Shown: positions 20,128 to 31,362 of the stretch, one piece after another | Layout of the letters: the number at the start of each line of letters is the position of its first letter | Position numbering within the stretch: position 1 is the first letter of the stretch | NCBI GenBank assembly: GCA_024644595.1 | Contig: JAHEHL010000009.1 | Coordinates: forward strand, 1-64,000 | Source of the DNA: Porticoccaceae bacterium | Lineage (GTDB): Bacteria > Pseudomonadota > Gammaproteobacteria > Pseudomonadales > Porticoccaceae | Reading direction: 5' to 3' | Length of the DNA: 64,000 nt | Program-made: the position numbers and the translations under genes | Notes under the pieces: generated by a model | Told to the model about the DNA's origin: nothing | The model's input: only the letters and a program-made list of their open reading frames with translations | Database searches by the model: none

Positions 20128-23100
20128 TTAGATGTCTTTATCGACTTCTAAATCGGACTCTAAAAACTGCGTTGCAAAGTCGTCGGCGGTAAGCGGCTTG
20201 CTGACCAGATAGCCCTGGAAATTGTCACAGCCAAGCTGCTGCAAAATTTTGCGCTGACCCGGAGTTTCGACACCTTCGGCGACAGTCGACATATTCAGAC
20301 TTTTAGCCAGGGCAATAATGCCCGAGACAATCGCCCTGTCACTCGGATCCGACTCAATGTCAGAGACAAAGGAACGGTCAATTTTCAATACATCTACCGG
20401 CAGGCGTTTGAGATAATTGAGCGATGAGTAACCACTGCCAAAGTCGTCTACGGCAATGGTCATACCCATTTCCCTGATTTTTTCCAGTTCGGTAATCATC
20501 AGCTCGGGGTGCTCCATCAAAGTACTCTCGGTAATTTCCAGTTCGAAAACATTCCCCGGCAGACCAACTCGATCGAGTAGATTTTTGAGTTTGGTGTGAA
20601 GGTCCTGCTGCATCAAATCTTTGACCGAGAGATTGACCGCCAGCGTCAGGTGATGGCCCTTATCGAGCCATTGTTTAAGCTGCACAGCTACGCGCTCCAG
20701 CACCCAGTAGGTAAGCTGATTGATCAGGCCGCTCTCTTCGGCTAGAGGAATAAAAACATCCGGTGGAATCAGACCTTTTAGCGGATGTTGCCAGCGTACC
20801 AGTGCCTCGGCACCAACCAGCTTTGCATTGGTCAAATCGAGCTGAGGCTGATAGTGCAGAATCAGCTCTTCACCGTCGATCGCCTTGCGCAGTTCCTGCT
20901 CCAGCTTGAGGCGTTTTGCAATCTCGGCCTCCATGCCGCGCTCATAGAAGCAGAAATTATTACGCGTTTCCTTGGCGCGAAACATCGCCGAGTCAGCGTG
21001 CTTGATCAACGCACTGACATCTTGACCATCGTCAGGAAAAATCGAAATACCAATGCTGGTGGTAACAAACATTTTTTGCTGCAAAAACACAAATGGGCGT
21101 GCTACCGAGCGACAAATTTTATCCGCGACACTGGCAGCAGCTTCCAGATCGAGAATATTTTCCAGCACAATGGTGAATTCATCACCCCCGAGACGGGCGA
21201 TAAAATCACTTTCCCGCACACAGTGTCGAATTCGGTCAGCCACTGCCTTGAGCAGCAGGTCACCGGCATCGTGACCCATGGTGTCATTGATCATTTTAAA
21301 GCGATCGAGGTCGAGAAAGAGAATGGCAAAGCGCTGGGTCTCGGAGGCGGCGCGATTGACAATCACAGCAAGCTGTTGCTTCAGGTGGGTGCGATTGGGC
21401 AGTCCAGTGAGAGAATCGTGGTAAGCCAGTTTTTTGACATCTTTCTCCGCTTTGCTGGCTTTGATCAAGCGCGCCACTCGCTGCTTGATGACTGAAAAAT
21501 TAATCGGCTTGGAAATATAGTCTGTGGCGCCCGAGGAGAAGGCGCGAACAATTGAATTCTCATCATCCAGCGCGGTAATCATCAGCACCGGAATATCACC
21601 ACCGTGGGGCAGCTCACGAATCATCTGGCAGGCGTCAAAACCATCCAGCTCCGGCATCACGGCATCCATTAATACCAGATCAGGCATATGCCGCTTGCAA
21701 ATATTTAGCGCCTGCATGCCATTGCTGGCCTCTTCCACTTCGTAGCTCTCTCGGGTAAAGGCATCGATCAGCGCCATGCGCACAGTGCGATCATCGTCGA
21801 CCACCAGAATTCTGCTGTACTTGCCATTTTTAAAGAGAACCGGCACCGCCTGATGGTCGTTTGAGGCTTCCTGTTTGAGGTCGTCCTTGAGCACATTGAA
21901 CGCAGAAGAAATCTGTTTGATCAATTCAGTGCCTTTGGACAGATCCTCTCGACCGGCATCGTCTTCCAGCTGCTTGCTAATCGCCACCAGATTATGGGCA
22001 CCAAAATTAGCCGCACTGCCCTTGATGGTATGCGCCATATCCCGCACTAGGCGCGCATTCCCCTCTTCAAAGGCGGCATTCAGCTTGTCGATATAGACCG
22101 GGGTGTCTTCAATAAATGCGGCTATCATCGACGATACCACTTCACCTACGGCCTCTCGAAGTGAGCCAATAACCCCGGGGTCATAACTAAGCGCGTGGTA
22201 TTGCGCTGCTGGTTGTTCTACCTCATCGATAGATTGGCCAGTCGCTTCGTCTGTAATTTTTGCCGGCGCGCAGCGCCAGGTCGCCAACGTTTCACGCAAG
22301 CCGGCCAGATTCAATGGCTTGGGCAGAAAATCACTCATCCCGGCATCACGACAGTTCTGCTCTTCATTTTCAGAGTTGTTAGCGGTCATGGCGACAATCG
22401 GTAACTCACCCGCTTTGCCGCCCTCGTAAAGCCGTATCTGTCGGGTTGCATCGTAGCCGTTCATAATCGGCATGTTGCAATCCATAAACACAAGATCAAA
22501 TTCTTCACGCATCACTTTTTCAACCGCTTCTTTACCATTGTTGGCCAGTGCAGTTTGACAGCCAAGTCTCTCCAACATAGCGGTCGCTACCTGCTGATTG
22601 GCGCGACTGTCGTCAACCACCAAAATTTTGCAAGAGCGTGGAAAAATAACCTCTTCAGGCAATCTATCGCCATCAATCTCGTCGAGCTCATCAGCCAGAT
22701 TGGGCTCATCACCCACAAAATACTTTTTCAACACGTTCGACAACGAACCTGAGCGCAACGGCTTATTCAAACGCGGCAGGGAGAGATCACTTATATGGGA
22801 TTCTTTATTCCACGGATTACTCAACATGACAGCCAGACGTTTGGAGAAGTTTTTCTCCAATTGAATAAAGTTAATCAGCTCATTGAGTTTAATATCATCA
22901 ATATTCTGGTCGACAAACAGCGCATCAAAACTCTCTCCGGACTGCCGCTCACGTATCAGGCTCAAGGCCTTTAAACCGGAATCAGCAAGCTCGAAGCCGA
23001 CACCCAATGTCGCAAATTGCTGTGCTGCGAACTGGCGGATAATCTTGCTATTACTGACCAGTAGCACACTGATATTTTGCAATTCGGAAGGCGGAGTGTC

Positions 23101-24705
23101 TTTTTCAGGGGGCTGCGCGACCATAACCGGAAGCGTAAAGCCAAACTGGCTTCCACGTCCGAGCTCGCTGCTGACAAAGATATCCCCACCCATTAGCTCC
23201 ACAATCTGCTTGCTGATAGCAAGGCCTAATCCGGTTCCCTGATAGCCTTTTGTATTCGATGAATCGACCTGAGTGAAGGCATCAAAAATCCGCGATTGAT
23301 CATGGGGAGCAATACCGATACCTGTGTCCTCAACCACAAACTTAAGTCGCACCATCGACCCGGGCGCTTGACGGTCGGGGTTTACCGAGAGGCCTGAACT
23401 GGTGTCTGCCGAGTCATGCTGCAAACTGATACGAATGGAAATCTCACCGGTTTCAGTAAATTTAACGGCGTTGCCTGCAAGATTGATCAACACCTGACGA
23501 ATTCGTTCGCTGTCGCTGTGCAGCGCCGGCGGAACATCGTCGTCGATAATATAGCCAATATTTAAATTCTTCTTCAGCGCCGTGCTTGAGAGCAGCCCGA
23601 CCACATCGTCAAGACTTTGGGACAACAGACAGTCGCGATTGATAACACTGATTTTGCCGGAGTTGGCCTCCGAGAAATTTAAAATGTCGTCAATCAGCGA
23701 GAGTAAATTTTCGCCCGACGATTTCGCAGTCTGCACATACTCCTTCTGCTTCAAACTCAAACCCATGGTCAGCAACAGATCTAACATACCCAACACGGCA
23801 TTCATCGGCGTGCGCAGCTCATGGGTGACATTGGCGGCAAATTCCACTTTCATCTCCGCCGATTCCAGTGCAGTCTTCATCGCACGCTTCAACTCCCGGC
23901 GGCGGCTTTCGAGCACATGCATCATGCGGTTAAACGACTGCTGCATTTCGGTGATGTCCACCGGCCCCTGAATAGGGGCGCGAATTTTCTCCTCACCCTG
24001 CTGGGCTCTTTTCATCACCGCGGACAAACGCTCTATCGGTTTTGTCAGGCGGCGGGAAAAATAAAGCAACACCAGCAACAAAATCATGGCGCCAATAAAT
24101 GAGGCCGCCATATTATTTCTAAGCGTACTCTTCTGCATCAGCCGCAGAGTGTCCTTGCCCACCAGAACCGTGATATAGCCGAGCAGAACATCCTCTTCAA
24201 TCTCGGAACCCAACACCTGTGCCTCATCGCTACTGCTGGCCAGAATAGGCGCGGTAAATTTCCATAGATCATTGTTCTCAGCTACCAGGCCCAGTGCGTG
24301 GGGTCGCTTATCTCGCTGCATAACAAGGTCTTGAAAAGGCATCGCAGGATCACTGTCAAGTTGATTATTCTGAGCACTAAAACTGGCGCCGACCGAATAC
24401 AGTATGTCGGCCTTGTCCGTTTCAATGGCGATGCCCTTAACGCCGGGAAAGTTCATGGCATCCTCGGCGATCTCGCGGGCGGCTTCAGCACTTTGATAAA
24501 GCAGCGCAATTTCACTGCGGCGGGCCAGAGATTCGGTCACCTGCATACCTTGACGCACCTCGTGCTTTTCAATTATCGAGCTGGAGAGTGAGCTCACCAT
24601 AACCGAGGTGACAAAGGCCAACAGCAAAATACCAACGATAAACACTGTAGAAAGCTGGGTTTTAAAACGCAGCCGATCGATCCAGTTTTGTTTTAATTTA
24701 CCCAT
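20128..24705 (-). CDS. BarA-like hybrid sensor kinase fused to REC-GGDEF-EAL (c-di-GMP enzyme)
   Basis: A 1525-residue inner-membrane signalling protein. Order: TM1 (17-40), periplasmic sensor (41-199), TM2 (200-218), HAMP (about 219-270). Next is the histidine kinase with His295 in NVTHELRTPMN, N-box INLAGNAVKF, DTGIGI and GTGLGL. A diverged receiver (about 543-663) precedes a full receiver with Asp742 (VFMDCNMP). An HPt domain has His892 (AHTIKGSAANFG). A third receiver has Asp1014 (VLMDAVMP). The GGDEF domain is intact at 1173-1177 with the RxxD inhibitory site (RESD) five residues before it. The EAL domain has EAL at 1300-1302 plus DDFGSGYSSL and AEGVET. So it has a whole phosphorelay and, by motif, both c-di-GMP synthesis and breakdown. 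The start lies six bases after the stop of the periplasmic-protein gene, which may feed its sensor domain. Confidence 0.95.
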   Translation of the reverse strand: MGKLKQNWIDRLRFKTQLSTVFIVGILLLAFVTSVMVSSLSSSIIEKHEVRQGMQVTESLARRSEIALLYQSAEAAREIAEDAMNFPGVKGIAIETDKADILYSVGASFSAQNNQLDSDPAMPFQDLVMQRDKRPHALGLVAENNDLWKFTAPILASSSDEAQVLGSEIEEDVLLGYITVLVGKDTLRLMQKSTLRNNMAASFIGAMILLLVLLYFSRRLTKPIERLSAVMKRAQQGEEKIRAPIQGPVDITEMQQSFNRMMHVLESRRRELKRAMKTALESAEMKVEFAANVTHELRTPMNAVLGMLDLLLTMGLSLKQKEYVQTAKSSGENLLSLIDDILNFSEANSGKISVINRDCLLSQSLDDVVGLLSSTALKKNLNIGYIIDDDVPPALHSDSERIRQVLINLAGNAVKFTETGEISIRISLQHDSADTSSGLSVNPDRQAPGSMVRLKFVVEDTGIGIAPHDQSRIFDAFTQVDSSNTKGYQGTGLGLAISKQIVELMGGDIFVSSELGRGSQFGFTLPVMVAQPPEKDTPPSELQNISVLLVSNSKIIRQFAAQQFATLGVGFELADSGLKALSLIRERQSGESFDALFVDQNIDDIKLNELINFIQLEKNFSKRLAVMLSNPWNKESHISDLSLPRLNKPLRSGSLSNVLKKYFVGDEPNLADELDEIDGDRLPEEVIFPRSCKILVVDDSRANQQVATAMLERLGCQTALANNGKEAVEKVMREEFDLVFMDCNMPIMNGYDATRQIRLYEGGKAGELPIVAMTANNSENEEQNCRDAGMSDFLPKPLNLAGLRETLATWRCAPAKITDEATGQSIDEVEQPAAQYHALSYDPGVIGSLREAVGEVVSSMIAAFIEDTPVYIDKLNAAFEEGNARLVRDMAHTIKGSAANFGAHNLVAISKQLEDDAGREDLSKGTELIKQISSAFNVLKDDLKQEASNDHQAVPVLFKNGKYSRILVVDDDRTVRMALIDAFTRESYEVEEASNGMQALNICKRHMPDLVLMDAVMPELDGFDACQMIRELPHGGDIPVLMITALDDENSIVRAFSSGATDYISKPINFSVIKQRVARLIKASKAEKDVKKLAYHDSLTGLPNRTHLKQQLAVIVNRAASETQRFAILFLDLDRFKMINDTMGHDAGDLLLKAVADRIRHCVRESDFIARLGGDEFTIVLENILDLEAAASVADKICRSVARPFVFLQQKMFVTTSIGISIFPDDGQDVSALIKHADSAMFRAKETRNNFCFYERGMEAEIAKRLKLEQELRKAIDGEELILHYQPQLDLTNAKLVGAEALVRWQHPLKGLIPPDVFIPLAEESGLINQLTYWVLERVAVQLKQWLDKGHHLTLAVNLSVKDLMQQDLHTKLKNLLDRVGLPGNVFELEITESTLMEHPELMITELEKIREMGMTIAVDDFGSGYSSLNYLKRLPVDVLKIDRSFVSDIESDPSDRAIVSGIIALAKSLNMSTVAEGVETPGQRKILQQLGCDNFQGYLVSKPLTADDFATQFLESDLEVDKDI

Positions 24706-24711
24706 AACTGG

Positions 24712-25644
24712 TCACCGCGCCGGCAGCACGAGATCAACCTGCCGCAGAACATCATCGGTCAAGTGAACACCCAAGTGTTTACTGGCGCGCTCATTGATGG
24801 TCACAAAAACATCATCCAGTGGCTGCATCTTGCGATCGGGGGCTTTATCCGCCGCAATATCTCGCGCCAGACGTCCAAGACTGAGGCCCATTTTGTAATT
24901 GTTGGGATAGAGGGAAAACAGCGCACCGCGCTTGACATGAACCGGATTTGAGGAGAAAACAACAAAGTGTTTATCCCAGGAAGCCTGCAATAAAATAGAC
25001 AGCATGGCATTGCCGATAAACGACCCACTGGGAAGAATCCATACGGCATCTTTTTCGTCAAGCTTCTGAATCAGGGCGCGATATACCGCCGCCGCCGCTC
25101 TTATATCTTCGGCAGGATGGACAATCAGCTTGAGGTTTTGCTGCAGAAATAAGTCGACAGCAGACGTTAGTGGTCCGCCCTCATTGGGCCCGACAATCAC
25201 ATGAATATTTTTTACCCCGGGAACCAATAACCGCAGTTTGCTGGAAACAATCTCAAAGCTTGGACTGAGAGTGATACCAAAGACGTTGTCAAACTCAACA
25301 TTTACAGCGCCGACAATCACCTTGTGATCAGGGTTATAGGTCGACACCTCGCGCGCCAGCCTGTTGCCAAGCACCAAAACCGGTGACTGGCGATCAAGTA
25401 CACTGACAAAGGCGACGGGTGATTGATTTTCCGATAGCGCAACAAGCTGAGCACGCTGTTTGTAGCCATCTCTGGCGCCTTTGACAATGTCCTCAAACAC
25501 CTGCGCGAATGGCTCACGCACCTCGGGATAGATCACCACCAACTCGGAGGCGGTTAGCATAGTGCTGAAAAATAATGAGCTTACATAGAGTGACAGTGCG
25601 GCGGAAGCAGTTATCCATAGCCTGAAGATCCGTGGAATTTTTAT
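24712..25644 (-). CDS. Periplasmic ABC_sub_bind-type ligand-binding protein, apparently starting at ATA
   Basis: A substrate-binding-fold protein of the ABC_sub_bind (PF04392-like) type, with a two-lobed layout. Segments such as VIVGAVNVEFDNVFGI and IVGPNEGGPLTSAV resemble this family. No ABC permease or ATPase is nearby, so it is more likely a sensor adaptor. The first in-frame ATG (25558-25560) would leave out a good signal peptide. The frame stays open upstream through a basic-then-hydrophobic stretch (KIPRIFRLWITASAAL, then SLYVSSLFF). That stretch begins at ATA (25642-25644), seven bases after a perfect AGGAGG. I therefore place the start at ATA (310 residues). A sequencing error or an ATG-to-ATA mutation is the alternative. 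It lies six bases before the hybrid kinase gene. Confidence 0.8.
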   Translation of the reverse strand: MKIPRIFRLWITASAALSLYVSSLFFSTMLTASELVVIYPEVREPFAQVFEDIVKGARDGYKQRAQLVALSENQSPVAFVSVLDRQSPVLVLGNRLAREVSTYNPDHKVIVGAVNVEFDNVFGITLSPSFEIVSSKLRLLVPGVKNIHVIVGPNEGGPLTSAVDLFLQQNLKLIVHPAEDIRAAAAVYRALIQKLDEKDAVWILPSGSFIGNAMLSILLQASWDKHFVVFSSNPVHVKRGALFSLYPNNYKMGLSLGRLARDIAADKAPDRKMQPLDDVFVTINERASKHLGVHLTDDVLRQVDLVLPAR

Positions 25645-25650
25645 AGCACT

Positions 25651-25657
25651 ACCTCCT
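25651..25657 (-). promoter_or_regulatory. Strong Shine-Dalgarno that fixes an ATA start
   Basis: The minus strand reads AGGAGGT, complementary to the 16S anti-SD. It is seven bases upstream of ATA at 25642-25644. No ATG, GTG or TTG in the correct frame lies at a suitable distance: the nearby GTG is in another frame and meets TAA after two codons. Confidence 0.75.
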
Positions 25658-25693
25658 GTACTGCTCTTGACGTCCTGAACCGCAATCTAGAAA

Positions 25694-25734
25694 CGGGCAA
25701 TTTGCTCTATATATCCATTGTCGAAAATTGCCCG
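25694..25734. repeat. Perfect 10-bp inverted repeat between receptor and periplasmic-protein genes
   Basis: CGGGCAATTT at 25694-25703 pairs with AAATTGCCCG at 25725-25734 across a 21-base AT-rich loop. It lies in the only sizeable gap (122 bases) of the six-gene cluster. There is no T-run after the stem in either direction, so a simple intrinsic terminator is not supported. It could be an operator, an RNA-processing stem that sets different levels for the genes on either side, or a stem around an internal promoter; TATATAGA occurs in the loop on the minus strand. Confidence 0.6.
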
Positions 25735-25766
25735 CTGCTAATAACGATTTACGCTTTAAGGATAGT

Positions 25767-27923
25767 TCAAAAACTGTATCGGATCTCACCCAATATCGCC
25801 TGCCCCTGCAAGGGCAGGTCATTTGGAATAAACGGCACCGGATCTGAATTTGGGCTCGGTTCGCGAGCATCCTGGTCAAACGCATTGGTCACTATCAGGG
25901 CAAGCTCAAAGGAATTATTCAGCACTTTGCGCAGAGATATATCCAGCAGCGTGTAATCGCCAACGGGAGCGCGCAGATCACCGCTGATACGATTGCGATC
26001 CATCACTCGGTTGGCACGCAGATTGACGCGCCAGTCTCTGGGCAGACTCCAATCGACACTAAGATACAACTGCTTCTCAGGCGATTTTTCCGCCGGTGCA
26101 TCAACCCTTTCGTCGGTCGACTTTTGAATGGCAAAGTTACCCGTCACAGTCAGGTCATCGCTAACCTGCCACACAGCTTCAAATTCAGCACCAAAGCCAG
26201 TCTGTTCTCCGGCATTTTGCGCAGTGCGAGTGCTACCATTAGCATCCGGTACAAACTGAATAATATCGCTCCAGTCGTAATAGAAAAAATTGCTAATCAG
26301 CGTCCAGGCGTAGTTAGGTCGATAGTCAAAGGCCAGTTCATAACTCTGAATTTCTTCCGGCTTAAGGTCTAGATTGCCCTGAATTAACGGATTATTAATT
26401 GCCCGCGTCTGGGCAAATGACGGTGCGCGAAAGGCCTCGCCATAGAGAAACTTGGTGGTAAGGTTATAACTGGTTGACCAGACCAGTGCCAATCGAGGGT
26501 TTGTGGTGGCCCCAAAGTCTGAGTACTTGTCATACCGCACGCCTGTAGTCAGCTCCCAGTCATTGGCAAACAGCCAGACATCCTGAAAAAACAGATAGCG
26601 GTTATCACGACTGTCCTCGGTTAAAAACACAAATGGCGTGTCCGACACATCAACCAAAGGATCGCCAGGCAGTATCGGCAGCCCGGTATCGGGGTTGATG
26701 CCAAAGTTTTTGTGTTCGGTAATCTTGTCGATTTCGCCCTTGTAATAGCCACCACCAACAGTAAGCAAGTGTTTTTCAATGCCACTGTGATCAAAGCGCA
26801 CACCGACCCGACTATGGTTTTCAAAAATTTCCGGGTTGCCGATCACACCATCAGGGAAAGCTGAGAAAATAGGTGCGCCAGTGGGACCGAAAAATGGTCC
26901 TGTCGATCCGGGAGGGTAAAGAATAAAATCGCCTTCAACTTCCTGTGATGTATCAAAGTAACTGGCTTGAATCTCCATTGAGGTCTTTTCAAACAGAGCC
27001 TCTTCGGTATAGGTTAAATCAATATTAAAACGTTGGCTGGAAAATCTATTTTGTGGATATAGAACCTGCGCCGCACCTGCTCCCGCGCCCCAATTATTTC
27101 TTATTTGACCACCTGCACGCAGGGTTAAATTTCTGTAATTAGCCTGAACTCTAAAATCAACATTATCTCGTTCGAGATCTAAAGGTCCTGGAGCATAAGA
27201 CACGTTGGTACCCGTCAGTAAATCCAGTAGCGTCTGGGCGTCACTATCAATTAATGCATCAGAGCCATCCGTTTTGCCCATTTCAACAGCTGCGAAGTAA
27301 CTCAGATCTCCATGTGCACCTGCTGTGCTAACCCAGGCATCTCTGGTATTAAAATTACCGACCCGCACACCCGCCGATTGCGTTCTTTGTTCGTCGGGTG
27401 TTTTGGTGACAATGTTAATCACTCCGGCAAAGGCATCGGCACCGTAGAGCGCGGAACCGGGCCCGCGGATCACCTCGATTCTTGAAATGGCCTCAACCGG
27501 CATTCCGCCCCATACCACGTTGCGATCACCCTGAAATAGATTGGTAATCGGAATACCATTTATCAGCATTAAAACCTGGGGATTAAAGTCTGAAGAGACA
27601 CCACGAAACAGATACTGAGAATTATGCCCAATAACATCTCGACCAATGTGTAGGCCGGGCACAGATTCCAGCACCTGGTCTATATCCCTGGCACCCATAG
27701 CCTTAATTTGCCGTGCAGTTATTACCGATGCCACAGCCGGTGCCTTGGCGATCGGCTGAACACTGCCTGTAGCAATCGACACATAGTCCTCGTCACCGTA
27801 GAGGCCGGCAAAATCCACATCTGAGTCTGGTTTTTCCTGGGCGCTAATCAGCCCCGTTATCAGAGAGAGCAACAGAGCCGAAACCCATCTTAAAACAATC
27901 GATACGCCATACAGTTTAGTCAT
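25767..27923 (-). CDS. TonB-dependent outer-membrane receptor, CirA/vitamin B12 receptor-like
   Basis: A 718-residue TonB-dependent receptor without an STN domain. A signal peptide ends near SAQ (about residue 29). The TonB-box area is followed by a plug domain at about 60-175, with VASVITARQIKAMGARDIDQVLE-type sequence, LFRGVSSDFNPQVLMLINGIP and IEVIRGPGSALYGADAFAGVIN. A 22-stranded barrel follows, with the conserved GEAFRAPSFAQTRAINNP segment and a C-terminal phenylalanine (GEIRYSF) for BAM recognition. It looks intact. Neighbours encode a periplasmic binding protein and a hybrid c-di-GMP kinase downstream and metabolic enzymes upstream, so ligand import could be coupled to signalling. The ligand is unknown. 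Confidence 0.93.
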   Translation of the reverse strand: MTKLYGVSIVLRWVSALLLSLITGLISAQEKPDSDVDFAGLYGDEDYVSIATGSVQPIAKAPAVASVITARQIKAMGARDIDQVLESVPGLHIGRDVIGHNSQYLFRGVSSDFNPQVLMLINGIPITNLFQGDRNVVWGGMPVEAISRIEVIRGPGSALYGADAFAGVINIVTKTPDEQRTQSAGVRVGNFNTRDAWVSTAGAHGDLSYFAAVEMGKTDGSDALIDSDAQTLLDLLTGTNVSYAPGPLDLERDNVDFRVQANYRNLTLRAGGQIRNNWGAGAGAAQVLYPQNRFSSQRFNIDLTYTEEALFEKTSMEIQASYFDTSQEVEGDFILYPPGSTGPFFGPTGAPIFSAFPDGVIGNPEIFENHSRVGVRFDHSGIEKHLLTVGGGYYKGEIDKITEHKNFGINPDTGLPILPGDPLVDVSDTPFVFLTEDSRDNRYLFFQDVWLFANDWELTTGVRYDKYSDFGATTNPRLALVWSTSYNLTTKFLYGEAFRAPSFAQTRAINNPLIQGNLDLKPEEIQSYELAFDYRPNYAWTLISNFFYYDWSDIIQFVPDANGSTRTAQNAGEQTGFGAEFEAVWQVSDDLTVTGNFAIQKSTDERVDAPAEKSPEKQLYLSVDWSLPRDWRVNLRANRVMDRNRISGDLRAPVGDYTLLDISLRKVLNNSFELALIVTNAFDQDAREPSPNSDPVPFIPNDLPLQGQAILGEIRYSF

Positions 27924-27926
27924 AAC

Positions 27927-28733
27927 CTACACCCTCCAGTGCTTGACTTCCTCGCCCCCTGTATAGTTGAGTCGAGAAGTCCGTAAGGGAAAAAAGCATC
28001 CTTCTTGCTGTTGCAGTGCATCAATAAAACAAGGCATCGCGCCAGCAGAAAAACCTAAAATCATCAGGTTGTAGAAGTCGATAGGCCTCAGATCTTGGTC
28101 GGCTAATAAACCGGCACATACCGCCGCAATATTGATCTGATATTTAAGTCGGCTTGCACTTAAATAGTCACCTACTTCAAAGGCAAGTTTGGTGTACCTG
28201 CCTGCGTCACAACCCACTGAGCGCGCAAAATCCATCATTGGCTTTACTCGCTCATCCCCCTCAACTATTGGCCGTCCATAGCCGTAAACACTCCGGTGCT
28301 GCTTTAATTCTGATTTAATAATCTGCTCTAGGCTCTCGCCCTCACGCAGACGCTGATCTGCGCGATATAAAAAATCGGTCGCCCCCTTAATCGGCTTTAG
28401 CCCATAGAGGGTTGCCTCGGTGACCGCGACTGATGCCGCTGAGGCCAGTGCTCCGGTGGAACGTGCGGTACCCGCCAGCGCAGATACTCGGTTATTCCAA
28501 ATGCGCGGATCGGGAAAGCTGGTGCAGATCACCCACATTCCCTCCATTAAACGTGCAATTTTGGGCGACTCTTTCCCGGTTGTCGCAAACAGCAAATACT
28601 CCATCCATGAACTGTGATTGACTTCGGTAAAAACATCCTTGCCACGCAGAACTACTTTGTCCCCGGGAAACCATCCGCCCATAGACGTGCGCCAATTATC
28701 CTCAAACTTCTCTAACTTACTGTGAACAGACAT
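27927..28733 (-). CDS. Short citrate synthase / citryl-CoA lyase-like protein (copy A)
   Basis: A 268-residue protein that resembles the short citrate-synthase superfamily (citryl-CoA lyase-like). The pattern matches helix segments of the family: SWMEYLLFATTGKESPK near the start, RVSALAGTARSTGALASAAS in the middle, GYGRPIVEGDERVKPMM where citrate synthases have GHxVYxxxDPR, and PIDFYNLMILGF where they have VDFYSG. In this alignment by eye the histidine of GHxVY is Arg, and the other catalytic His position (PLHGGANE region) reads PIKGATD. The Asp of DFY is kept. So it belongs to the fold but may not be a normal synthase. The stop lies three bases before the TonB receptor start. Confidence 0.7.
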   Translation of the reverse strand: MSVHSKLEKFEDNWRTSMGGWFPGDKVVLRGKDVFTEVNHSSWMEYLLFATTGKESPKIARLMEGMWVICTSFPDPRIWNNRVSALAGTARSTGALASAASVAVTEATLYGLKPIKGATDFLYRADQRLREGESLEQIIKSELKQHRSVYGYGRPIVEGDERVKPMMDFARSVGCDAGRYTKLAFEVGDYLSASRLKYQINIAAVCAGLLADQDLRPIDFYNLMILGFSAGAMPCFIDALQQQEGCFFPLRTSRLNYTGGEEVKHWRV

Positions 28734-28760
28734 ACATTTTTCTCACTAGATCAATCAACC

Positions 28761-29552
28761 TCACGAAGTTAATTTGAAGCCGTCACCAAAAAAGGGGTAT
28801 TTTCGCCAACCGAGTCGCTCTTGTTCCAGGCTATGGATCGCCGCACCGGGTAAGCGCAGCAACAAAAACAACATCTCTGCTTCTTGAGGTAAAAACTCGA
28901 GTTCATAAAGCACCGCCGCCGCAACGCCCGAAAAAGCGAGTGGACAACCTGCAAAATCTTCCAGCTGTGTTCGACAAGCCTGCAACCAGCGCAGAGTTTC
29001 ACTGTTGCCCACTTCAACCAGATGCGCCAGAGTCTGTTTAACCGGTGTCGGGCAACTTATGCCATTGGGGTCAAATCCTGGTGCATGTTCCATCGGATGC
29101 CAGATATCTTCGCGCCCAAGCTGCGGCGGATCTGCAATCCACTGCTGCCACTTATCCAGATCAGTGTGACAGTGTTGCCAGTATTCAAGTGCGGTAAAAA
29201 CTTCGCGCGCGCCACCCAAATTGCCCGCGCCTACGGCCAGTGCAGCAATTAATGCCGAGGCATGCGTTGAACCGCCAACCCCTGCACTCATAGCCGCCCT
29301 GACGCTGTGATCTCGCGGTCCGGGATTGGCCAGCGCAATAGCCAGCCCTTCGAGCAATGCAGATTGCTCAGCGCTGGGCTGTTTATGTTTGAACAGCAGA
29401 TAGAGATAGTCGCTGTAGCGCGCGTTTTTTAGCAGGTCGTTATAAACATCGTAGCCACAGCAAACACAGCTGGAGGCTGCAAATGGGTTATCTAGTTCGG
29501 GAGTCTCACACCAGATTCGAGAACTAATAACTTCAGAAAATTTTTTAGACAT
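28761..29552 (-). CDS. Short citrate synthase / citryl-CoA lyase-like protein (copy B)
   Basis: A 263-residue protein, again citrate-synthase-like. It has GYDVYNDLLKNARYSDYLYLL (the GYD element of the large domain), RDHSVRAAMSAGVGGSTHAS and GAGNLGGAREVFTAL, which lines up with the family's GPLHGGANEA stretch but with Leu where the catalytic His is expected. The C-terminal AAAVLYELEFLPQEAEMLFL and RLPGAAIHSLEQ match the small-domain ending of citryl-CoA lyases. It is clearly diverged from copy A, so the two may form a heteromer. The ATG overlaps the end of the ThDP-enzyme gene by eight bases. Catalytic function is not assigned. Confidence 0.7.
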   Translation of the reverse strand: MSKKFSEVISSRIWCETPELDNPFAASSCVCCGYDVYNDLLKNARYSDYLYLLFKHKQPSAEQSALLEGLAIALANPGPRDHSVRAAMSAGVGGSTHASALIAALAVGAGNLGGAREVFTALEYWQHCHTDLDKWQQWIADPPQLGREDIWHPMEHAPGFDPNGISCPTPVKQTLAHLVEVGNSETLRWLQACRTQLEDFAGCPLAFSGVAAAVLYELEFLPQEAEMLFLLLRLPGAAIHSLEQERLGWRKYPFFGDGFKLTS

Positions 29553-31362
29553 TTTGTAGTTTCAGAACATCTGTTCGCAGGCCAATTGGCGGGGCTTCAT
29601 TAATATCGATGCGGACATCCAGCACGGTTGGTCCTTTGCGTGCACAAATAGCCTTTATATCCAGTTCCCTGAGATCTTGCGGTGACCGGATAACATGCCC
29701 GGATGCACCCATCGCCCGAGCCACGGCAGCAAAATCTACTGCTGTTAACTGGTTGGCAATAGGTTCGGCACCGGTTAATGTTTGTCCATGCTTCACCATG
29801 CCAAAGGCACTGTCATTCAAGATGACAAAGATTAGAGTTAATTTTTCCTCCACCGCCACGGTGAGTTCCTGACCGCTCATTAACCAGCTTCCATCTCCGG
29901 TAATACAGACCACCGGGGTATCCTCCAATGCCAAACAGGTTCCTACTGCACTGCCAATTGCCCAGCCCATGGATGCAAAATCCATTGCCGCACTAAACAG
30001 ACCACCATAGTCACGCTGTCCGGCGATACGACGATCAAAAGGGTGCAAATAGTGCGTCCCCCATGCGAAGCTATTGCCAGAATCTGCCAGATATCGCGTA
30101 TTGGGCGGGAATAGTTTCGGAAGGTAATACATTAAACGTTGAGGTTTGATTGGCGTCGTGTCGGTGCTGTACGCAGACAAATTATCAAACTCAAAATGCA
30201 TTGCTAGCTCGTCAGACGTAACGTCAGCATGACGCTGAAATCTCTTCGGATTTTCTTTCGGTAGAATTTTCCGAAACCATTGCCGTTGGTTTTTACTGTA
30301 TTCACCGTCAAGTCGACTAAAAATAGTTTCAAGACAACCGCGCACATGAAGTTTTGCCATCGGAGTGCGCGTCAAATTAGACTCGGTGGACTCAACATGT
30401 ATCAGTCTACTATTGAGAAGATTTTCAGTATCCCAAGCATTGCTGGAAAACTCGCCAAAGCGCGCGCCAATCGCTACAACCAAATCGACTGCTGGATCCC
30501 CTAGCAATTTAATCGCTGAGAGATGCCCGGCAAAACCAATTACACCCATAAATAGTGGGTGATATGGACTGACTAACCCCTTACCGTGGGGCGTCACTAT
30601 GATTTTCGCGTTAACTCTCGACGCAATACGCAAAATATTAATAATGGCTGCTCCCGCCTCATCACCAATAATAAATACCGGATTACGCGCACGGACAATT
30701 TCTGCATGTAGTCTGGCAACTGCATTTTCATCAATCAATGCCGGCCTATCCAGCAAGGTGTTGAGTTGGTAATTGACCCGTTCATCCAATGTTGGCATGG
30801 CCATCACATCGCGGGGAACGCTGATATGCGCCGGGCCGGCTGGCGAGCCCATGGCGGACATAATTGCGGCCGCCAGTTTATGTTCAAACTGGTTAATATG
30901 AGAGATCAATGTGTTGTATCGAGTGCAGTGGGTATACAGACCCACGGTGTTAACGCCGGTGCACGAGGAGTCCTGAATAGCGCCCTTGCCAAAGGTGGCA
31001 ATGGCGGTTTGGGCTGTGATCACGAGCATCGGCACATTGTTTTCGTAAGCCGAGGCAACCCCGGTAATCATATTGGTGGCGCCCGGACCCGTGGTTGAAC
31101 AGCAGACTCCCAATTTGCCACTATTCCTGGCATAGCCGTCAGCCATAAAGGCGGCGCCAGTTTCATGGCGGGCGACTACGGCGCGCACGCCGCCGCGTCG
31201 CTCACTGCGTGCCAGAGCATTGTAGAGTGGCTCTATGGCGCCACCGGGTACACCAAAAACATATTCAATACCTAACTGATCAAGATAGGCCACCAACAGG
31301 TCAGCCATGGTTGGTCCGACCGTGCTGTCAAGATAAGTCACTTTTGCGTTTTTGCCTGTCAT
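29545..31362 (-). CDS. Thiamine diphosphate-dependent enzyme, acetolactate synthase-like
   Basis: A 605-residue ThDP enzyme of the acetolactate synthase / sulfoacetaldehyde acetyltransferase group. The Pyr domain has GIEYVFGVPGGAIEPLYNAL and the catalytic Glu in ARHETGAAFMADGYAR. A central domain follows, and the PP domain has the ThDP motif GDGSWLMSGQELTVAVEEK ending in ILND. It has no neighbouring small subunit (IlvN/IlvH), and the rest of the ilv pathway is absent, so valine biosynthesis is unlikely to be its main role. It opens the cluster of citrate-synthase-like and TonB/signalling genes. A 2-oxoacid or 2-hydroxyacyl-CoA reaction is plausible but not shown. Confidence 0.85.
   Translation of the reverse strand: MTGKNAKVTYLDSTVGPTMADLLVAYLDQLGIEYVFGVPGGAIEPLYNALARSERRGGVRAVVARHETGAAFMADGYARNSGKLGVCCSTTGPGATNMITGVASAYENNVPMLVITAQTAIATFGKGAIQDSSCTGVNTVGLYTHCTRYNTLISHINQFEHKLAAAIMSAMGSPAGPAHISVPRDVMAMPTLDERVNYQLNTLLDRPALIDENAVARLHAEIVRARNPVFIIGDEAGAAIINILRIASRVNAKIIVTPHGKGLVSPYHPLFMGVIGFAGHLSAIKLLGDPAVDLVVAIGARFGEFSSNAWDTENLLNSRLIHVESTESNLTRTPMAKLHVRGCLETIFSRLDGEYSKNQRQWFRKILPKENPKRFQRHADVTSDELAMHFEFDNLSAYSTDTTPIKPQRLMYYLPKLFPPNTRYLADSGNSFAWGTHYLHPFDRRIAGQRDYGGLFSAAMDFASMGWAIGSAVGTCLALEDTPVVCITGDGSWLMSGQELTVAVEEKLTLIFVILNDSAFGMVKHGQTLTGAEPIANQLTAVDFAAVARAMGASGHVIRSPQDLRELDIKAICARKGPTVLDVRIDINEAPPIGLRTDVLKLQNV

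Follow-up and report, generated by a model that had tools for sequence, protein, structure and literature searches.

Several described systems resemble parts of the locus reported here. LuxP-LuxQ and TorT-TorS each combine a periplasmic binder with a hybrid histidine kinase, and no outer-membrane receptor or synthase genes are known to lie beside them. NspS-MbaA pairs a PotD-like binder with MbaA, a protein that has GGDEF and EAL domains and no kinase. In the pyoverdine/FpvA system a molecule made by the cell itself is retrieved by a TonB-dependent receptor that also feeds signalling. Here we analyze a cluster of six genes in the first 64,000 nucleotides of contig JAHEHL010000009.1 of a Porticoccaceae bacterium (assembly GCA_024644595.1), a stretch that we call the window. 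The cluster encodes a thiamine diphosphate (ThDP)-dependent enzyme, two citrate-synthase-like (CS-like) proteins, CSA and CSB, a TonB-dependent receptor, a periplasmic binding protein (the binder) and a hybrid histidine kinase with output domains for cyclic diguanylate (c-di-GMP), the usual switch between motile and sessile life. We find that these six genes, enzymes included, form one conserved and recurring unit. The parts belong to known families; what is new is their combination and the pathway that they probably encode.

From each known family tested, the cluster departs in at least one defining feature. Its likeness to NspS-MbaA of Vibrio and Sinorhizobium is that in that system, as far as excerpts of the published accounts go, a periplasmic binder reports a small molecule to a membrane protein that modulates c-di-GMP. 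Here too a binder is encoded next to a GGDEF-EAL output (gene order and Pfam; 43 of the 48 well-flanked loci described below). In the window, however, the binder belongs to PF04392 and is separated from GGDEF-EAL by a histidine-kinase phosphorelay (HisKA, HATPase, receivers and Hpt); the cluster also contains genes for a TonB receptor and for enzymes. The combination of binder and hybrid kinase is shared with LuxP-LuxQ and TorT-TorS, but the sensor domain (sCache_4) and the binder family differ, and the window kinase does not reach the cut-off of the LuxQ model (301.7 against 1200). As a whole the proposed loop resembles the pyoverdine/FpvA loop. It differs from that loop in that a non-ribosomal peptide synthetase (NRPS) or NRPS-independent siderophore (NIS) enzyme, an anti-sigma/sigma pair and a receptor signalling domain are absent among the genes scanned. 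An earlier note, made from the sequence of this stretch alone, knew of no named system with this set of genes, and our search agrees with it: among the open-literature matches listed by title or start of abstract, with subscription papers outside the scope, no description of the six-gene set was found.

Results

The six genes recur as a unit

Scanning named genomes with CSB brought up 347 relatives, and we retained the 80 best for inspection. Cultured environmental carriers are Porticoccus sp. W117, SAR92 H231 and Shewanella salipaludis, for example. Nearly all of these 80 come from Pseudomonadota, and the carriers among them include SAR92, Porticoccaceae, Cellvibrionales, Cycloclasticus, Methylococcaceae, Shewanella salipaludis, Exilibacterium, Gallionella, Sideroxydans and Pelotalea chapellei, together with single bins filed under Planctomycetota and Flavobacteriales, which may hold foreign contigs. 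Forty-eight of the 80 loci are well flanked, with at least 6 kb to the left and at least 9 kb to the right of CSB. Counting tblastn matches above 40 bits (above 60 for the kinase) anywhere in a locus, the ThDP enzyme and CSA were found in all 48, the receptor in 47, the kinase in 46 and the binder in 45; all six genes are present in 45, so the cluster is not a product of chance. The GGDEF and EAL parts were found in 43 loci each. Because the loci were selected by CSB, these counts show what accompanies CSB and cannot reveal loci without it. L150 gave neither a binder nor a kinase match by tblastn; L152 gave no binder match by tblastn, yet a PF04392 protein detected by Pfam adjoins its kinases. 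The earlier note had taken the six genes for one functional set and suggested looking for the same neighbourhood in other genomes. As far as conservation goes, that proposal is supported by 45 of the 48 loci, and the pattern that would speak against it, synteny of receptor, binder and kinase with variable enzymes, is mostly not seen in this CSB-anchored sample; it does appear in three genomes in which the CS-like pair is replaced (L253, L280 and L277, see below).

Gene order was compared in 163 annotated loci, that is, a set of 168 minus five loci without a CS match (L071, L151, L214, L216 and L232). The 163 include the window, contain some organisms twice and many cut contigs; L072, L073 and L187-L193, weak CS matches without a cluster, had been left out of the set of 168. 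The order of the window (ThDP enzyme, CSA, CSB, receptor, binder, kinase) is the commonest, with 58 of the 163 loci, and at least eight other arrangements exist. In distant lineages the order is reshuffled and the set retained: L179-L182 read receptor, CSA, CSB, ThDP enzyme, binder, kinase; some lineages have binder and kinase on the opposite strand; and in L066 the kinase is split but its parts remain close, the sCache_4 kinase and the binder being placed divergently on one flank and a receiver-PAS-GGDEF-EAL protein on the opposite flank, a layout found in nine loci according to hidden Markov model assignment only. Across the 44 loci with six full-length genes, tree distances are correlated for each of the 15 pairs of components (r 0.68-0.87), with none of 999 permutations as high and with no species-tree correction, which shows joint descent of the components.

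The cluster is nevertheless an accessory trait, since CSB is found (E<=1e-20) in 43 of 369 genomes of the class, 43 of 98 of the family and 12 of 36 of the window's genus. Matches to CSA (E<=1e-3) came from 52 of the 293 genomes searched in the order, the weak matches L072 and L073 showing no cluster. At phylum level CSB matched in 21 of 398 genomes (E<=1e-3), ten strongly (E<=1e-50) and 11 weakly, and seven of the weak ones (L187-L193) were examined and have no cluster. No plasmid record matched CSB at E<=1e-5.

Organization of the cluster in the window

Table 1. Genes of the cluster, with positions in the 64,000-nucleotide window.
Gene product	Position	Strand	Length (amino acids)	Basis of assignment
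Hybrid kinase	20128-24705	-	1525	Pfam; motifs by eye
Periplasmic binding protein, PF04392	24712-25644 (first ATG 25560; possible ATA start 25644)	-		Pfam
TonB-dependent outer-membrane receptor	25767-27923	-	718	Pfam plug and barrel
CS-like B (CSB)	27927-28733	-	268	Citryl-CoA-lyase fold, AlphaFold and Foldseek
CS-like A (CSA)	28761-29552	-	263	Citryl-CoA-lyase fold, AlphaFold and Foldseek
ThDP-dependent enzyme, acetolactate-synthase superfamily	29545-31362	-	605	Pfam TPP_enzyme_N/M/C

The open reading frame coordinates agree with the earlier description of six genes on one strand: from the ThDP gene on, an overlap of 8 bases is followed by gaps of 27, 3, 122 and 6 bases, the gap of 122 presupposing the ATA start of the binder. 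Downstream, starting 24 bases past the cluster, lie tsaC, scpA and scpB; a VC0807-family gene lies upstream in divergent orientation. The binder was said to lack an ABC (ATP-binding cassette) transporter, and none was found among the ten further flanking genes scanned around the cluster. Promoter and terminator scans yielded no excess of sites over shuffled controls (10 against a control mean of 14.3; 13 against 13.5), and PADLOC gave no match for the five cluster proteins other than the kinase. A single PilZ-domain match above cut-off shows that the host genome encodes a known type of c-di-GMP receptor.

Loss and decay of the cluster

In Porticoccaceae the cluster occupies a site between the VC0807 gene and tsaC. 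Fifty-five of the 98 family genomes have no CSB match and one more (G1067) has a broken one; 20 of these 56 were taken and 19 gave a tsaC locus. In 11 of the 19 the two flanking genes stand side by side and the site is empty, whereas five (G181, G242, G262, G1053 and G1074) keep C-terminal remnants of the kinase with different end points. G1071 has a kinase only 34% alike, G159 is a variant with a β-ketoacyl synthase III (KAS III), and in G1067 the six genes are all still there, interrupted by four in-frame stops in CSB and six in the receptor. The block has been lost repeatedly in the window's family. Of 17 family genomes without CSB, one, G159, gave a receptor ortholog at E<=1e-30; among the genomes sampled, the receptor is not retained where the enzymes are gone.

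Several loci show loss or possible decay in detail. At L254:7893-10835 a full-length cluster carries stops only in the receptor (6) and CSB (4) among the matched stretches, a decay in progress. A C-terminal piece of the kinase is left beside tsaC at L255:5882-6826, L256:5833-6645 and L257:6096-6542; that of L255 is an open frame of 314 residues with the EAL part, perhaps retained as a free phosphodiesterase. A natural deletion at L040:9494-10399 fuses CSA residues 1-217 in frame to the EAL tail of the kinase. In L231 only short or split frames represent the receptor, the ThDP enzyme and the CS-like proteins, flanked by longer genes for binder and kinase, which may reflect a decaying copy or sequence errors.

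The CS-like pair has a citryl-CoA-lyase fold without its catalytic Asp

Neither CSA nor CSB reached any Pfam family, and citryl-CoA lyase models matched weakly, below cut-off. Their AlphaFold models (mean pLDDT, the predicted local confidence score, 91.0 for CSA and 91.6 for CSB) both have citryl-CoA lyase 6hxp as best Foldseek match (E 1.9e-8 and TM-score by query length 0.69 for CSA; E 1.2e-9 and 0.75 for CSB), and ATP-citrate lyase cores match as well. We placed the catalytic columns by profile alignment of CSA and CSB to 6hxp, taking His, His and Asp to be its catalytic residues, and counted them in a wider and a close alignment of CSA (A1, 30 rows; A3, 67 rows) and in two alignments of CSB (A2, 35 rows; A4, 72 rows). 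Mutants of an Asp are named in the PDB titles of Foldseek matches to the CSA model. No Asp occurs in the catalytic Asp column in A1 or A3 for CSA, nor in A2 or A4 for CSB. The first His column of CSA holds Pro, rarely Leu or Ala, and the second falls in a poorly aligned stretch, with His156 near it in 66 of 67 A3 rows and 16 of 30 A1 rows. In CSB the alignment is gapped around the first His, and Arg154 stands at or next to the position of the GxGH His in 35/35 (A2) and 72/72 (A4) rows, the alignment being ambiguous by one residue.

Both proteins thus have the citryl-CoA-lyase fold without the catalytic Asp and, as far as the alignment places them, without the His residues. Classical citrate or citryl-CoA chemistry is therefore unlikely, because the Asp is absent, Pro mostly replaces the first His of CSA and an Arg stands at or beside the GxGH His of CSB. 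The term citrate-synthase-like, used in the earlier note, is apt for the fold and not for the active site. What CSA and CSB share with the citryl-CoA lyase/ATP-citrate lyase core is this fold; they differ from it in being two paralogous subunits in which Asp and (as aligned) His are unconserved. The simplest reading is that CSA and CSB would form one two-subunit enzyme with a rebuilt active site. A table in PMC3751524 lists a Caulobacter citrate-lyase/citryl-CoA-lyase gene as one of its rows.

The ThDP enzyme

The ThDP enzyme has the three TPP domains. Glu67, which we take to be the catalytic Glu, and the motif G489-D490-G491 ... N516-D517 are invariant among 37 aligned members. The ThDP domains and Glu67 are those of acetolactate synthases, but the enzyme stays below the acetolactate synthase equivalog cut-off of NCBIfam (best 284.3 against 509 bits), as it does below the cut-offs of all 25 NCBIfam models among the matches listed. 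The closest PDB sequences are BbmA (8x3x) and CsmA (8x3z), and these and ScyA-type enzymes are among its nearest relatives; it differs from the ScyA type in scoring 255 bits where the ScyA-related cut-off is 1000. We know of no CS-like partner beside ScyA-type, BbmA or CsmA enzymes. Two other settings of ThDP genes were seen. At L281:6862-8016 the gene lies beside a FIST-like protein (by eye) and a hybrid kinase, the CS pair of that genome being elsewhere, and in L278 and L286 a ThDP-family gene adjoins a gene pair like 2-oxoglutarate dehydrogenase E1/E2 (by eye).

Enzyme swaps and tailoring genes

A ThDP-profile search was positive in 45 of 293 genomes of the order (E<=1e-150) and 37 of 369 of the class (E<=1e-170), and seven and five of these, respectively, had no CS-like match. 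In G159 (L253) a KAS III-like gene of 316 codons lies between the ThDP and receptor genes, and its Cys, His and Asn align with those of FabH. In G687 (L280) another KAS III-like gene, together with a frame of 131 residues, takes the place of the CS pair, and in G782 (L277) a methyltransferase gene does. All three retain the receptor-binder-kinase module beside the swapped gene. The remaining candidates were set aside: G141, G164, G186, G247 and G267 in the order and G717 in the class end at contig edges, G051 gave no clear arrangement, and in G850 and G851 the ThDP gene stands without an adjoining cluster. A KAS III gene near a ThDP gene in L284 was also rejected, since by eye it is part of an ordinary group of fatty-acid genes.

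In 13 of the 163 annotated loci, genes of tailoring families typical of biosynthesis lie within the cluster or immediately next to it: short-chain dehydrogenases/reductases (L042, L114, L137, L224 and L225), O-methyltransferases (L115, L126 and L230), sulfotransferases (L054 and L063), carbamoyltransferases (L047 and L114), an asparagine-synthase-like amidotransferase (L222) and a vanadium-haloperoxidase-like gene (L208). Interior frames of at least 200 residues number 27, and 22 of them were scanned. Apart from the tailoring families, these 22 include a YfiR-like protein in L225, a weak match to solute-binding proteins in L060, a nucleotidyltransferase in L229 and a cohesin/TSP3 protein in L221; four gave no family. 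No importer recurs among these 22 frames, and the importer negatives refer to the frames scanned, distant flanks having been scanned for transporters in the window and in L066. The earlier note left it open whether a molecule is made or used by the enzymes. The KAS III swap, like the tailoring genes, favours synthesis over catabolism, which narrows the choice towards a molecule that is made and leaves use less favoured.

Receptor and binder

The receptor has the plug and barrel of TonB-dependent siderophore receptors. Its PDB matches fall on the plug region of receptors that include those for colicin I, B12 and enterobactin, and it does not reach the siderophore-receptor cut-off of TIGR01783 (146 against 223.5 bits). 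The binder matches PF04392 with E 4.9e-10 and is the most variable part of the set, with a mean pairwise identity of 34% against 45-59% for the other five. This is as expected of a part that tracks a changing ligand, and other reasons are possible. We also asked whether binder and receptor might diverge faster where KAS III takes the place of the CS pair. Between L253, the KAS III variant, and L038 the kinases are 60.5%, the receptors 57.8% and the binders 27.4% identical; 18 CS-CS pairs with kinases 56-64% identical have binders at 38.8-45.8% and receptors at 60.8-77.2%, the kind of alignment differing between the two comparisons. However, L038 by itself has a divergent binder when compared with its relatives of the CS type (21-24% identity where the kinases are 50-53% identical, in the ten pairs listed).

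The first ATG of the binder gene lies behind a signal-peptide-like stretch that runs in frame back to about 25644, and no ATG, GTG or TTG that would retain this stretch occurs at 25560-25686 on the minus strand. Near relatives (L034, L074 and L081) share with the window an AGGAGG-like sequence followed by an in-frame ATA AA(A/G) AT(T/C), and also have an ATG a few codons further; L077 has ATA AAA at the corresponding site, and L083 and L094 have ATT AAA ATT. The binder may thus possess conserved AUA or AUU start codons.

The kinase and its c-di-GMP output

Pfam gives the kinase the order sCache_4-HAMP-HisKA-HATPase-receivers-Hpt-receiver-GGDEF-EAL, in which two receiver stretches pass on their own. 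The H-box, receiver Asp, Hpt His, RESD I-site with GGDEF, and EAL can be read by eye in its translation, in agreement with the earlier claim of an intact phosphorelay with GGDEF and EAL motifs. Among 64 kinases of at least 1300 residues (duplicates included), the H-box is present in 64, the Hpt motif in 51, GG(D/E)EF in 58, the I-site in 57, E(A/V)LxR in 55 and DDFG in 64, which suggests that both output activities are usually kept. The c-di-GMP output proposed in the earlier note is common, with GGDEF and EAL sequences in 43/48 loci, but not universal, L183-L186 having another type of kinase. At L225:11804-12424 a gene for a YfiR/HmsC-like periplasmic protein, of a family linked to c-di-GMP control, lies beside a kinase of the cluster region.

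Discussion

The gene set, its conservation, the fold and motif status of its proteins, the swaps and the joint loss are consistent with a self-contained circuit that makes, retrieves and senses a molecule, a reading for and against which we see about equal weight. From the families involved we infer that the ThDP enzyme would form a carbon-carbon bond from a 2-oxo acid. The CSA/CSB pair would complete or modify the product, in the place taken by KAS III in two relatives. The small product would then leave the cell by some route, and the dedicated receptor would draw it back into the periplasm, TonB-dependent receptors being known to import molecules whose size or scarcity makes porins unsuitable. 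There the binder would recognise it, and a putative complex of binder and kinase would drive the phosphorelay, setting GGDEF/EAL activity and hence c-di-GMP. Both a self-signal (autoinducer) and a metallophore are compatible with the data. We put forward only tentatively, and lean against, the broader proposal of a previously undescribed class of ThDP-derived signals. In such a class the scaffold would be varied by partner swap (CS-like pair, KAS III or methyltransferase) and by lineage-specific decoration, a dedicated TonB receptor would retrieve the product, and a co-inherited binder and kinase would set c-di-GMP.

Several observations weigh against the circuit. In L130 the ThDP gene, CSA and CSB are present and receptor, binder and kinase matches are absent. 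In L183-L186 neither receptor nor binder was seen, and the enzymes are paired with a different kinase: their neighbours are a protein of about 1,730 residues (Ser/Thr kinase, AAA, GAF and histidine kinase by Pfam in L185; not visible in L184, where the contig ends) and a LuxR/NarL-type regulator. No exporter recurs among the interior frames scanned either, and tailoring genes are confined to 13 of the 163 loci. The chemistry of the CS-like pair, which lacks the known catalytic residues, is a guess. CSB-anchored sampling inflates the enzyme counts. The ThDP search missed known carriers, at least six in the class (G675, G676, G733, G816, G919 and G952, that is, L201, L233, L196, L194, L206 and L204), and scored three candidates per genome there, so that the frequency of swaps cannot be derived from it. 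Lastly, at L066:1623-4387 a solute-binding protein, a permease and a TOBE-type ATPase are encoded one gene beyond the cluster; L065 and L068 have frames of similar sizes.

Such an importer set near a cluster is what one would look for if the receptor took up a carboxylate or cofactor from the environment, the binder and kinase sensed it and the ThDP and CS-like enzymes degraded it in the cytosol. TonB-dependent receptors usually serve uptake, lyases occur among both ThDP and CS-fold enzymes, and the CS-like pair is closest to citryl-CoA lyase, a cleaving enzyme. However, the residues for lyase catalysis are lost in that pair, no importer recurs in the clusters (22 of 27 interior frames scanned), and the genes for KAS III, for the O-methyl-, sulfo- and carbamoyltransferases and for the haloperoxidase-like enzyme belong to anabolic types, so we regard degradation of an imported compound as unlikely. 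If instead the enzymes made a small hydroxy acid or hydroxyketone that binds metal, the receptor would return the metal complex and the kinase would report its retrieval. The logic of making and retrieving is that of siderophores, and the nearest named models and PDB relatives of the receptor are siderophore, B12 and colicin receptors; the receptor nevertheless scores below the siderophore-receptor cut-off, and no NRPS or NIS synthetase was found among the genes scanned, which makes a metallophore system unlikely. We consider it very improbable that a metabolic operon and a receptor-sensor operon are two independent units that merely adjoin. The gap of 122 bases with its own Shine-Dalgarno-like sequence ahead of the binder would fit such a division, as would the placement of binder and kinase on the opposite strand in some lineages, but the parts remain together across several reshuffled orders and in 16 of the 17 family genomes without CSB no receptor ortholog was found.

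If the make-retrieve-sense circuit is correct, many environmental Pseudomonadota, SAR92-type marine bacteria included, would carry an unrecognised small-molecule pathway wired to c-di-GMP, with its synthase, receptor and sensor set available together. The citrate-synthase fold would have found a new use without its classical active site, and the cluster would offer a way into the control of c-di-GMP in marine bacteria that have received little study.

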